A DNA stretch of 64,000 nt from a virus. The stretch covers positions 1-64,000 of IMG/VR virus record IMGVR_UViG_3300042350_004632. The stretch is one strand, 5' to 3'. Numbering within the stretch: position 1 is the stretch's first letter; the number at the start of each line of letters is the position of its first letter. Of the stretch, positions 56,615 through 60,310 are shown piece by piece. The position numbers and the translations under genes are program-made. A model generated the notes under the pieces. That model ran no database searches, was not told where the DNA came from, and worked only from the letters and a program-made list of their open reading frames with translations.

Positions 56615-56905
56615 ATGAGTAAATTAAAACCATTAAATGGGAACATTATTATTAAGCCTTTAGAGGACCAAGAAACAACTTATGGCAATATTGTAATTCC
56701 TGATATGGGAAAAGAAAAACCAGAAATAGGAGAAGTAATATCAGTAAGTGACACCTTAAATTGGCATACAGGAGAGTATGTTTGTTCAAAAATTAAACCA
56801 GGAGATATAGTTCTTATACCTAAGATGGGCGCTGTATCATTTATGGTGGATGGAGAAGATTATTATGTAACTAAAGAAACAGAAATATTAGCAATTTATG
56901 AGTAA
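56615..56905 (+). CDS. groES: GroES-like co-chaperonin
   Basis: A 96-residue Hsp10. LKPLNGNIIIKPLEDQETTY opens the fold, NIVIPDMGKEKPEIGEVISV is the conserved region after the mobile loop, KPGDIVLIPKMGAVSFMVDG and EDYYVTKETEILAIYE form the roof-side and closing strands. The mobile loop (about 20-32) is short compared with host GroES. It overlaps the GroEL gene by 8 bases, so the pair is translationally coupled. It would cap the phage GroEL ring. Confidence 0.88.
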   Translation: MSKLKPLNGNIIIKPLEDQETTYGNIVIPDMGKEKPEIGEVISVSDTLNWHTGEYVCSKIKPGDIVLIPKMGAVSFMVDGEDYYVTKETEILAIYE

Positions 56906-58568
56906 AATTATAGAGTATAATCAAGAAGCAAGACAAAAACTAGCTGAGGGAGCTAGAAAGTTATCTCAAGCAGTTGTATCAACATTAGGTCCATTTGGTC
57001 GTAATGTTATTATTGAAAGACAAAATGAGTTACCTCAATCAACTAAAGATGGTGTTACAGTAGCTAAATCAATTACTTTAAAGGATCCAATTGAAAACAT
57101 AGGTGCTGAGGTGATTAAACAAGCCGCCATTAAAGCCGCTAATACTGCGGGTGATGGTACAACAACTACAACACTATTAGCTTATTCTATTATTAAAGAA
57201 GGTTTAAATAGTGTTAGAGCAGGTTCAAATGCTGTTGAAATCAAAAAGGGTATTGATGCTGCTGTTAAACAAGTAGTTAAAGCTCTAAAAGAAAATAGTA
57301 AAGACATTTCATCTGAAGAACAATTAAAACAAGTAGCTACAATATCAGCTAATAATGATGAGTCAACAGGTGAATTAATCGCTACTGCTATTGATAAAGT
57401 AGGTAGAGAAGGAGTAGTTGCTATTGAGGAAAGTAAAACAGGTGAAACATCACTTGAAGTAGTAGAAGGTATTCAGTTTGATAGAGGATATAAATCACCT
57501 TATTTTGTCACTAATAATAGTACAATGCAGTCAGTTTTAGAAGATCCATTTATATTAATTTATGATGGTCGTATAACAACAGCTGCTGAGTTATTAAATG
57601 TATTACAAAAAGTAAATAGTGAGAATAAATCATTACTTATTGTAGCTGATGATATTGATGGTGAAGCACTAGCCACACTTATTGTTAATAAAATGAGAGG
57701 TGTTGTTAAAGTATGTGCTGTTAAAGCACCTGATTTTGGTGAACGTAAAACATTACTATTAGAAGATTTAGCTATTGTTACTGGAGGTCAAGTTATATCT
57801 AAAGATAAAGGTTTGAAATTAGATAAAATGCCTGTAAGTCAATTAGCATCTTATTTAGGTACAGCTAGAACAATAACAGTAAGTAAAGAAAAAACAACTG
57901 TTGTTGATGGTAAAGGATCTGAAGAAGCAATCACCGCTAGAGCTATAGAAATTAAAACACAAATTGATAATGCTCAATCATTCTTTGAAAAAGAAAAATT
58001 ACAAGAACGTTTAGGTAAATTAATTGGTGGTGTAGCTATTATTAATGTTGGTGGTGTGAATGAGATTGATATGAAAGAATATAAAGATAGAGTTGAAGAT
58101 GCTTTATTTGCTACTCGTGCCGCTAATGAAGAAGGTATACTACCCGGTGGTGGAGCAGCGTTATTATATGCTAGAGAAGCTATTACATACAGTAAAGAAG
58201 AAAGTGAAGATTTTAAAACAGGTAAAAAAATAATTTATAGTGCTTTATCAGCTCCATTTATTCAAATACTTGATAATGCTGGTTATACTAATCCAAGTTG
58301 GTACATGTATGAATTAGGTAAAACAGCTTTAGACCCAAATACTGATGTATATGATAATACATGGAGAGGATATGATTTAAAAACTGAAACATTTGTTAAT
58401 ATGCTTGACGCAGGTATATTAGATCCAACTAAAGTAGTTCGTTTAGCAATTGAAAATGCATCATCTGTAGCAGGTACTATATTAACAACTGAAACTGTTA
58501 TATATGAGGAACCAACTAAAGATAAAAAAGATGATGAAGGAATGGGTAATATGATGGGAATGATGTAA
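56898..58568 (+). CDS. groEL: GroEL chaperonin
   Basis: A complete 556-residue GroEL. TLGPFGRNVIIERQNELPQS and TKDGVTVAKSI near the N-terminus, AANTAGDGTTTTTLLAYSII (the ATP-site D-G-T-T-T), an apical domain at ~190-375, EEGILPGGGAALLYA near 410, and a Gly/Met tail ending GMGNMMGMM are all present. Thr replaces Ala in the usual D-G-T-T-T-A-T block. With the coupled GroES it would fold phage proteins, perhaps the large capsid or fibre proteins. Phage GroEL/ES pairs are uncommon. Confidence 0.95.
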   Translation: MSKIIEYNQEARQKLAEGARKLSQAVVSTLGPFGRNVIIERQNELPQSTKDGVTVAKSITLKDPIENIGAEVIKQAAIKAANTAGDGTTTTTLLAYSIIKEGLNSVRAGSNAVEIKKGIDAAVKQVVKALKENSKDISSEEQLKQVATISANNDESTGELIATAIDKVGREGVVAIEESKTGETSLEVVEGIQFDRGYKSPYFVTNNSTMQSVLEDPFILIYDGRITTAAELLNVLQKVNSENKSLLIVADDIDGEALATLIVNKMRGVVKVCAVKAPDFGERKTLLLEDLAIVTGGQVISKDKGLKLDKMPVSQLASYLGTARTITVSKEKTTVVDGKGSEEAITARAIEIKTQIDNAQSFFEKEKLQERLGKLIGGVAIINVGGVNEIDMKEYKDRVEDALFATRAANEEGILPGGGAALLYAREAITYSKEESEDFKTGKKIIYSALSAPFIQILDNAGYTNPSWYMYELGKTALDPNTDVYDNTWRGYDLKTETFVNMLDAGILDPTKVVRLAIENASSVAGTILTTETVIYEEPTKDKKDDEGMGNMMGMM

Positions 58569-58618: not shown

Positions 58619-58849
58619 ATGATTTGGTATATTTACATTATTAGTATTAGTTATTGTGTTTGGAAAATGACTAAAAGCTATAAAAAAGTATATGGCGAAG
58701 GAAATCCAATTGGACCAACACCAGGATTAGAAACTCTATTTATTATTCCATTTGCTCCAATTCTAGCGGCGGTTGATATTACTATGACATGGGTTAGATG
58801 GTCGCGTGAAGCAGAAGAAGCTAAAGTGAGAAGAAATAAAATATTCTAA
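58619..58849 (+). CDS. small membrane protein
   Basis: A 76-residue protein. Residues 2-16 (WYIYIISISYCVW) and about 38-58 (GLETLFIIPFAPILAAVDIT) are hydrophobic, the second a likely membrane helix. The end is charged (WSREAEEAKVRRNKIF). A TTTTGACC box and a TATATTTAA motif precede the ATG, in the same arrangement as before 34507. Function unknown. Confidence 0.5.
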   Translation: MIWYIYIISISYCVWKMTKSYKKVYGEGNPIGPTPGLETLFIIPFAPILAAVDITMTWVRWSREAEEAKVRRNKIF

Positions 58850-58853
58850 TAAT

Positions 58854-59009
58854 TGTCAAGTGGTGAAAGCTAGATCAGCAGGTAGACACACCCACTCGTC
58901 TCGTGGGCGCTGAGTTTGAGATAGATGTTTGGATATGGGTTGACCACAAGCCGGCTATTTTGTCCAACATTGAATCACAGCGTGGATGGTTCGAATCCTC
59001 CCTTGACAG
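58854..59009 (+). ncRNA. tRNA-like RNA with oversized variable region
   Basis: A 156-base element folding like a tRNA: acceptor TGTCAAG/CTTGACA (58854-58860 and 59002-59008); a GTG/CAC D-stem whose long loop holds an extra GCT/AGC hairpin; an anticodon-like hairpin CCCAC-TCGTCTC-GTGGG near 58890; and a T arm GGATGG-TTCGAAT-CCTCC whose stem pairs fully if one T is bulged. Between the anticodon-like and T arms, about 75 bases form a CGCTG/CAGCG stem enclosing a paired ATGTTTGGA/TCCAACAT arm. The anticodon loop lacks U at position 33. It may be a decayed tRNA, an intron-bearing tRNA or a tRNA mimic. Confidence 0.5.
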
Positions 59010-59019
59010 CTTAAATATA

Positions 59020-59279
59020 GATACAAAAGGTTGATTGGGAAGCCTTACACCTTCATTAAAAAGTTGGAATGTAAGCAAGGAGGTGTAGGAACCGAAGTAA
59101 AGCCAATCGTAAAAGTAGATGTCCACGCACCCATCTTCTACTTTCCTAAAATTATTGACACGCACGGCAACCGAAGTCATACTAGTCAAAGATTAGGCAA
59201 TGCGAACAATCATGAAGAATACCTCACTGTGCGTAGGTTAGTTTTAAGTTCTTCTGACCGTGGGGAAAGGCCCACTCCA
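59020..59279 (+). ncRNA. GC-rich structured RNA region of unknown family
   Basis: This stretch between the tRNA-like element and tRNA-Leu has no credible gene. Bases 59041-59280 are about 43% G+C against roughly 20-30% in nearby coding DNA. Visible pairings include GATTGG/CCAATC (near 59032 and 59103), ACACCT/AGGTGT, competing CTTACA/TGTAAG, AAAGTAGA/TCTACTTT (near 59112-59154), ACGCAC/GTGCGT (near 59160-59234), GGTTAG/CTGACC and GTGGG/CCCAC. I recognise no RNase P, 6S, intron or riboswitch signature. It could be part of a larger RNA with its neighbours. Confidence 0.45.
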
Positions 59280-59364
59280 GCCTGGATGTTGGAATTGGTA
59301 TACAAGAAGGTCTTAAAAACCTTTGAGCTGAAAGCTCGTGCGGGTTCAAGTCCCGCTCCAGGTA
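59280..59364 (+). tRNA. tRNA-Leu (anticodon TAA)
   Basis: An 85-base type II tRNA. Acceptor GCCTGGA/TCCAGGT (one G-T pair), D arm with GAATTGGTATA loop, anticodon stem AAGGT/ACCTT with loop CTTAAAA giving TAA, long variable arm GAGCTGAAAGCTC, and a perfect T arm GCGGG-TTCAAGT-CCCGC. CCA is not encoded. UUA is a preferred Leu codon in this AT-rich genome, which explains why the phage carries it. Confidence 0.93.
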
Positions 59365-59410
59365 CATACAAAAAAATATTAGTTTCTAGTATCTACCAAT
59401 ATTTATTAAT

Positions 59411-59878
59411 GTGAAACAATATGATACTAAAAAATCAAACAGTTGGAAAAAATTAGGAATAAAACCTAAAAATATTCCACAACAAGAGTTCATTGACATA
59501 TGTAATAGTAGTGAATCAATGGCTCACGCTGCTTCTAAATTAGGATTACATTTTAATACCTTTAGAAAATACGCCATGGGTTATGGTTGTTATAACACAA
59601 ACCAATCTGGTAAGGGATTAAAAAAAGATTTTAAAAAAAGAATAACTAATATAAAAGACTACGCAACAAGAGCATCAGTAAGAAAACGTATTTTACAAGA
59701 AAATCTTATTCCTCATGAATGTAATGAGTGTGGAATTTCAGATTGGAAAGGTAAAAAACTATCACTACATTTAGATCATATTGATGGTAAAGCATGGAAT
59801 CATGAATTATCTAATTTAAGATTTTTATGCCCAAACTGTCATTCACTAACCAGTACATATACTGGAAAGAATAAATAG
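59411..59878 (+). CDS. HNH homing endonuclease-like protein
   Basis: A 155-residue free-standing HNH nuclease. The start is GTG at 59411, since an in-frame TAG lies just upstream and the next ATG is inside the protein. An N-terminal helix-turn-helix (SMAHAASKLGLHFNTFRKYA) would read DNA. The HNH part has CNECGISDW, LHLDHIDGKAWNHELSNLRF and LCPNCHS: the central His-Asp-His, Asn and paired Cys ribbons are intact. It sits between tRNA-Leu and the tmRNA gene, typical for mobile endonucleases that spread in phages. It is too small for an IscB-type protein. Confidence 0.85.
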   Translation: MKQYDTKKSNSWKKLGIKPKNIPQQEFIDICNSSESMAHAASKLGLHFNTFRKYAMGYGCYNTNQSGKGLKKDFKKRITNIKDYATRASVRKRILQENLIPHECNECGISDWKGKKLSLHLDHIDGKAWNHELSNLRFLCPNCHSLTSTYTGKNK

Positions 59879-59891
59879 TTCTTTAATTTAT

Positions 59892-60285
59892 GGGGGTAAC
59901 ATGGTATCGATTCGTAATCGGAGGATAGTATCACATGCAGAGGGAAGGCGTTCAAACCTCTTTAATATCCATGCTAAACAATAACTGACGAAATGTCAAC
60001 AATGACCTTCGACGACCTTATGGCGTTCGTAGGCGCCGACTACGCTGTAGCAGCTTAGTCCGCATCGGGTATGAAATCCTAGGAACAGAATTCATTGAGT
60101 ACTCACAATCGACTCATTAAATAAGGACTGTGAATTAGTTTTCTCTGTAGTCATAAAACAGAGTGGTGGATTCAGACCATGACGGTCATGCCCATTACGG
60201 TGCAATAGAAATATAGTACTAAGCGTGTGAGACGTTGGTATTATTGTTCATTACGAAGACGTGGGTTCGAATCCCACTACCTCCA
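59892..60285 (+). ncRNA. ssrA: transfer-messenger RNA (tmRNA)
   Basis: A 394-base tmRNA. The tRNA-like ends pair perfectly: GGGGGTA at 59892-59898 with TACCTCC at 60278-60284. ATGGTATCGATTCG fits the D-like start, and GTGGG-TTCGAAT-CCCAC is the T arm (60261-60277). The tag frame ends ...GADYAVAA with TAG at 60056-60058, close to the usual YALAA degradation tag; where the tag begins (perhaps GCG at 60023) is unclear. Downstream pseudoknot-type pairings such as TCTCTGT/ACAGAG are present. CCA is not encoded. It would rescue stalled ribosomes and mark truncated proteins. Confidence 0.9.
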
Positions 60286-60310
60286 CTATATTTATAATAA
60301 ATAATTATAT

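Follow-up and report, generated by a model that had tools for sequence, protein, structure and literature searches.

The window analysed here is the stretch of 64,000 nucleotides at positions 1–64,000 of IMGVR_UViG_3300042350_004632, a 72-kb virus contig, and the feature under study occupies positions 59020–59279. Genes for a tail sheath, baseplate/tail-fibre-like proteins, DNA polymerase, helicase, ribonucleotide reductase, and GroEL are present, and the record is therefore attributed to a contractile-tailed phage. At 56615–58568, a 96-aa ORF judged by eye to be GroES-like lies immediately 5' of the phage GroEL. The RNA-gene array is arranged in the order module A, module B, module C, tRNA-Leu, an HNH endonuclease gene, and tmRNA (Table 1).

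Table 1. Features of the RNA-gene array and of its modules B and C (window coordinates).
Feature	Position	Strand	Details
Module A, tRNA-Asp-like RNA	58854–59009	+	~80-nt insert; acceptor UGUCAAG/CUUGACA; G73
Module B, structured RNA family	59027–59148	+	three-way junction; R1 match, covariation, members
B, helix P0, 5' strand AAGG	59027–59030	+	pairs with CCUA 59145–59148; outermost pair unformed in the window copy
B, helix P1, 5' strand UGAUUGG	59032–59038	+	7 bp; pairs with CCAAUCG 59103–59109
B, pseudoknot 5' strand GGUG	59082–59085	+	pairs with loop bases CACC 59128–59131
B, internal-loop strand AGUAAAG (AGWAANG)	59096–59102	+	opposite GGGAA, above P1
B, hairpin P3 (AAAGUAGA/UCUACUUU)	59112–59144	+	8 bp; loop 59120–59136, UGUCCACGCACCCAUCU, 17 nt
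Module C, whole	59157–59275	+	~100–120 nt
Module C, core	59157–59259	+	24-sequence alignment
C, putative pseudoknot strand ACGCAC	59160–59165	+	pairs with downstream GUGCGU, crossing the ACCU/AGGU helix
C, optional 3' hairpin GUGGGGAAAGGCCCAC	59260–59275	+	compensated stems in relatives, by eye
tRNA-Leu (UAA)	59280–59365	+	ARAGORN; Rfam 53.9 bits
HNH endonuclease gene	59411–59878		between tRNA-Leu and tmRNA
tmRNA	59892–60286		ARAGORN and Rfam

The initial annotation had singled out this stretch as G+C-rich and gene-free, flanked by RNA genes, and folded into a structured RNA of unknown type beside tRNA-Leu. Its G+C content is indeed 42.7%, compared with 30.3% for the window, and only ~1% of 260-base windows are equally rich. 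Its ORFs of 104 and 127 codons are mechanical, and the longer one runs through the tRNA. A coding role was rejected because the lengths of B are not kept in multiples of three and because a tRNA lies inside the ORF; one open frame is found in 65 of 180 B elements (at least 180 were collected), as expected for such a short stretch. The RNA gene on the right is tRNA-Leu(UAA), starting at 59280, and the one on the left is module A, called neither by ARAGORN nor by Rfam.

The folding energy of 59020–59279 is no better than that of shuffled sequence (z = -0.18), and neither B nor C nor the stretch as a whole reaches significance by single-sequence folding energy. Structure therefore had to be decided by comparison, and its proof, read from aligned sequences, is comparative and does not come from single-sequence folding. 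The Rfam search proposed in the initial annotation returned no family for the stretch. Only tRNA and tmRNA were found in the window at the gathering thresholds of Rfam 15, and at E ≤ 5 over 58800–59420 tRNA was accompanied by two chance matches overlapping it. Ten array loci likewise yielded tRNA and tmRNA only, and a B of another type, in locus L086, gave one sub-threshold snoRNA match on the opposite strand (18.1 vs. 50 bits). Conservation across homologous regions is present, and the strong covariation described below upholds the structured RNA.

Comparison loci were retrieved with the GroEL protein, whose relatives occur in 72 distinct viral loci, and with DNA patterns. In these loci the stretch is seen to be a mosaic of two independently moving modules, B and C. 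B occurs without C in L006 (between tRNA-Glu and tRNA-Thr) and, standing apart, in both L039 and L050, and no B adjoins C in L088, L237, L260, and L270. In L004, two other RNAs take the place of B between A and C, and C lies directly 3' of B in 6 of 31 C copies. Thus, the single large, ornate RNA of ~260 nt that had been envisaged gives way to two separable RNAs, and a single molecule reaching from A to C was rejected for the same reason. The HNH endonuclease gene is a candidate agent of array mosaicism.

Module B was aligned as 36 diverse members (alignment A1), with element lengths of 73–159 nt. Its three helices are paired in 97.8% of cells, and 9 of 19 pairs have both partners changed (in 50 cells, compared with 12 in shuffles). 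The covariation score is 0.239, compared with 0.106 for shuffled partners and 0.03–0.05 for slid partners. The covariance model R1 scores the window copy, itself one of the 36 training rows, at 100.4 bits (E 1.9e-20), and recovers full-length members well above noise, including those outside the training set. There is hardly any doubt that B exists as an RNA family with this secondary structure. At least 180 distinct sequences were collected from at least 174 loci of uncultivated phages, in and around the tRNA arrays of environmental phages. No relatives were found in 50,697 INPHARED phage records at blastn sensitivity, where only tRNA-Leu and chance matches were returned, and a core pattern limited to GCAN loops gave 10 matches in 84,980 bacterial and archaeal genomes, none with the B structure. 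Within the collections searched, the distribution of B is phage-only.

B is closed by helix P0 (columns 1–4/157–160), with the consensus NAGG/CCUN; the outermost pair of P0 is UA in 15 members, AU in 7, GC in 1, GU in 1, and unpaired in 11. The consensus of P1 is UGAUUGG/CCAAUCR, with 99.2% of cells paired and both-sided changes in four of seven pairs. Above it lies an internal loop, GGGAA/AGWAANG, which may resemble the sarcin-ricin/loop-E motif; in the AGWAANG strand A, G, A, A, and the last G are invariant in all 36 rows. The P2 region above P1 is variable. In one type of B a further pseudoknot, GUGUAUAUC/GAUAUACAC, is likely within P2, with counterparts elsewhere (GUGUAUUUC/GAAAUACAC and GUGUAUGUC/GACAUACAC), all of them unscored readings of the sequences. 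Another conserved RNA-like element (AATCAGCAGGG..) was seen inside P2 at L079:4900-5060, L194:899-1058, and L212:1993-2152, and a AATCAGCAGGG-like sequence lies 3' of B in L101 and L148.

Hairpin P3 has the family form AAAGNNNN/NNNNCUUU with a 17-nt loop, is 99.7% paired, and shows both-sided changes in four of eight pairs. Its loop reads GUCCAC-NNNN-CCAUC, with bases 2–7 and 12–16 invariant in 88 of 88 elements among the matches listed. In a scan in which the loop was left open, with 18–34 nt allowed to lower circularity and ascertainment, the spacing was exactly 25 nt in all 88 distinct elements among the matches listed, 20 of which, again among those listed, came from loci found by that scan alone.

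Three of the four inner loop bases, together with the C that follows, pair with a GXYZ motif just above P1. The partners change together: GAAC with GUUU, CAAC and CGAC with GUUG, CGCC with GGUG, and CCCC with GGGG. Loop and motif are fully complementary in 70 of the 96 elements with the GGAG landmark, compared with a mean of 28 and a maximum of 43 in 2000 shuffles. The signal is weaker when unique combinations are counted (11 of 28 complementary, a value reached in 18 of 2000 shuffles). Where a GCAC loop accompanies a CGGUU motif, most members form only two or three of the four pairs. An earlier reading, in which loop variation would encode specificity for an external target, was replaced by pseudoknot pairing.

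This covariation is compatible with intramolecular and intermolecular pairing alike, so that copies of B could instead join one another into rings or cages, in the manner of phi29 pRNA or of the GOLLD and ROOL nanocages, and tandem copies with self-matching loops would then form separate assemblies. In seven loci (L085, L103, L106, L127, L143, L149, L156) tandem copies do carry different loops, and the complementary loop–motif pairs differ between copies in one genome. GOLLD and ROOL, likewise found near phage tRNA islands, are homo-oligomers (PMC12286853). However, the fixed lengths of P1 (7 bp) and P3 (8 bp) fit side-by-side docking of two helices, which explains them more simply within one molecule, and 4 bp alone would be weak for assembly without further contacts. 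We consider such assemblies unlikely, and intramolecular docking is retained as the preferred arrangement.

The gene setting of B is that of a unit in an array. A tRNA starts within 60 nt downstream in 77 of 167 copies among the matches listed, 75 of them at 5–8 nt past the final CC, and ends within 60 nt upstream in 63 of 162, also among the matches listed, 54 of them at 1–5 nt; in another 22 of these 162 listed copies, B is preceded by the T arm of a tRNA-like RNA. The other 3' neighbours among the 167 listed copies are tRNA-like shells (19), C (6), a second B (6), an ORF (32), and something else (27). This spacing is that of tRNA-array units and speaks for an RNA gene that is processed along with the adjacent genes, not for a general leader. 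As B usually abuts tRNAs or other RNA genes within a few bases, most likely it acts in trans as an RNA processed from the tRNA transcript, rather than as a leader or an intron. An own promoter of the Bacteroidetes type (TANNTTTG), hinted at by L311, was rejected for want of overall enrichment, with 1 of 72 free-standing copies having such a promoter upstream against a 3% background.

The same position could be read as that of a ribozyme that separates the RNAs of the array by cleaving or processing itself, with the docked invariant surface as its active site. Its three-way junction is compact, with a pair of docked helices and numerous unpaired bases that do not vary, and B often lies exactly between RNA genes. 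Yet the flanking tRNAs already provide RNase P and RNase Z sites, free-standing copies and copies preceding an ORF also occur, and the models of known ribozymes do not match B, which makes catalysis rather improbable.

We likewise do not favour B as a cis-regulatory leader, either a riboswitch or a protein-binding leader, of the genes that follow it. Its invariant bases are pocket-like, and 32 of 167 copies among the matches listed lie 13–70 nt 5' of an ORF, of which ~20 belong to one gene family (MKQEVYTDYEN..) at near-constant spacing. B stands ~22–29 nt 5' of this small gene in L077, L093, L098, L113, and about 16 more loci, in copies with differing P2 domains; the first 60 residues of the protein match no Pfam family, and upstream of this family a cis role would also fit. 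At least 108 copies, on the other hand, lie directly 5' of a tRNA, a tRNA-like shell, C, or a second B, and the remaining downstream ORFs differ. A consistent 5'-leader position before functionally related genes, as expected of a riboswitch, was not found, since most copies precede RNA genes. For the family as a whole, a leader is therefore improbable, and B is better described as a unit of the array.

Comparison of 24 members (alignment A2) identifies C as a second covarying RNA family; it has no Rfam match. Its covariation score is 0.310 vs. 0.133 in shuffles, with 60 vs. 19 both-sided cells; two of five summary measures are not clearly above shuffles (both-sided pairs 39/500; further pair types 471/500). 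Helix P4 (GAAGA-A/U-UCUUC) shows both-sided changes in six of six pairs, and two other helices covary. The ACGCAC/GUGCGU pairing is formed in 98.6% of cases and is nearly invariant, so covariation supports it weakly; the pseudoknot is likely, on the strength of complementarity. The 3' hairpin has the forms GCCGG/UCGGC and GCUCG/CGGGC in relatives and is missing in L254, L260, L266, and L270. A tRNA-like shell encloses the C core in L260 and L270, where the core takes the place of the anticodon arm.

Module A has 86 distinct relatives in 86 loci, with an acceptor stem that is fully paired in 84 of 84 testable relatives (588 of 588 pairs, 17 acceptor sequences), a figure that is somewhat circular because the profile was built from members with paired acceptors. 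G73 is present in 85 of 86, the loop at the anticodon position is YYGUCUC in 58 of 60, with U37 and mostly C33, and the conserved insert of ~80 nt carries GGUUGACCAC. The loop and G73 match the determinants of tRNA-Asp, G34, U35, C36, C38, and G73, and A may be charged by AspRS or may titrate it. A near-constant tRNA-Leu-like shell (AGTCAGGTGGCGGAATTGGTAGACGC ... ACAGGTTCGAATCCTGTCCTGACTACA) holds differing inserts instead of the anticodon arm at L002:5808-5914, L006:7143-7284, L201:4212-4391, L260:3431-3603, and other sites. There are 29 distinct AGTCAGG shells, and shells of all kinds number 103, compared with 1 in shuffled DNA; the tRNA-Leu-like shell has the look of a natural tRNA scaffold into which RNA cassettes are set. 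At least three more recurrent, unannotated RNA-like elements were seen in the same arrays as B and C: AATCGTTCGAACGTGGAACGACGAAGACA in L174, L366, and L004; TTAGTAAAGACTACATCCATAGGTGACCAC in L006, L178, and L181; and a GTCAGCGGTGTAAAGCAACCCCACTGG-like element in L088 and L172.

The explanation that accommodates these observations best is that B and C are two phage non-coding RNAs, neighbouring units of the RNA-gene array, most likely transcribed with it, excised by the tRNA-processing enzymes that act on their neighbours, and active in trans. In B, P0 closes the element, and P1 and P3 would be held parallel by the 4-bp pseudoknot between the P3 loop and the motif above P1. Such a docking geometry would gather the invariant GUCCAC, CCAUC, and AGWAANG on one surface, with P2 left as a free, replaceable module. 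Leaving its role aside, B is probably an array unit of this kind, trans-acting and with the docked fold. We can speculate, as a guess to which we would give rather less than even chances, that B serves as a decoy or takeover RNA whose invariant surface would bind a component, protein or RNA, of the host translation machinery or of a defence directed at tRNAs. Phage tRNAs counter tRNA-targeting defences (PMC10264068, PMC11555353), which motivates this guessed role and is no test of it. Equally tentative is the broader picture, in which environmental phages carry in their tRNA arrays a toolkit of undescribed trans-acting RNAs (B, C, and others) in the form of interchangeable cassettes, some of which replace the anticodon arm of a tRNA-like scaffold. 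In this picture the invariant surface of B, a double-docked RNA, would capture or mimic some part of the host translation apparatus or of a tRNA-directed defence. That B and C are functionless relics or passengers kept by array recombination (decayed tRNA genes, intron remnants, or homing-site debris) is very improbable, for although their distribution is mosaic and an HNH endonuclease gene adjoins, no group I or II intron matches, the loop invariant in 88 of 88 elements among the matches listed and the compensatory changes over many phages speak of selection, and covariation already contradicts this reading.

B is a well-supported RNA family missing from Rfam and common in uncultivated phages; neither isolated phages nor bacterial genomes were seen to carry it, and ordinary annotation therefore misses it. 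Its fixed architecture and invariant loop make it a clean target for structure determination and pull-down work, and the family bears on the question of which tasks, besides the supply of tRNAs, the tRNA arrays of phages perform. A search of the literature, mostly of open-access papers, found no description of B or C.

Among known systems, no tRNA is called in B or C by ARAGORN or Rfam, no Rfam intron model of group I or II matches, with B mostly located between complete genes, and no model of the known self-cleaving ribozyme classes matches B. The acceptor stem and T arm of tmRNA and tRNA-like RNAs are retained in module A and in the shells that enclose two copies of C, whereas B has neither and C has them only when in a shell. 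Defence-evading phage tRNAs share with B and C the compact tRNA array; B and C themselves, however, lack an acceptor stem, a T arm, and an anticodon. The phi29 pRNA is a three-way junction of ~120 nt with two complementary 4-nt elements. B is likewise a three-way junction with complementary 4-nt elements, whose pairing is known from covariation alone; it differs in having no model match and in its location in tRNA arrays, here that of a phage with a tail sheath. GOLLD and ROOL are pseudoknotted, structured RNAs of unknown function in phage tRNA islands (PMC12286853), and B resembles them in being phage-encoded, pseudoknotted, and in or beside such islands. They exceed 500–800 nt and have their own Rfam models, whereas B measures 73–159 nt and C ~100–120 nt, and B showed neither a match to those models nor a length above ~500 nt. 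Structured RNAs encoded in phage tRNA islands are already known as a broad kind; what is new, as far as our searches reach, is the B family with its fold and its behaviour as a cassette.
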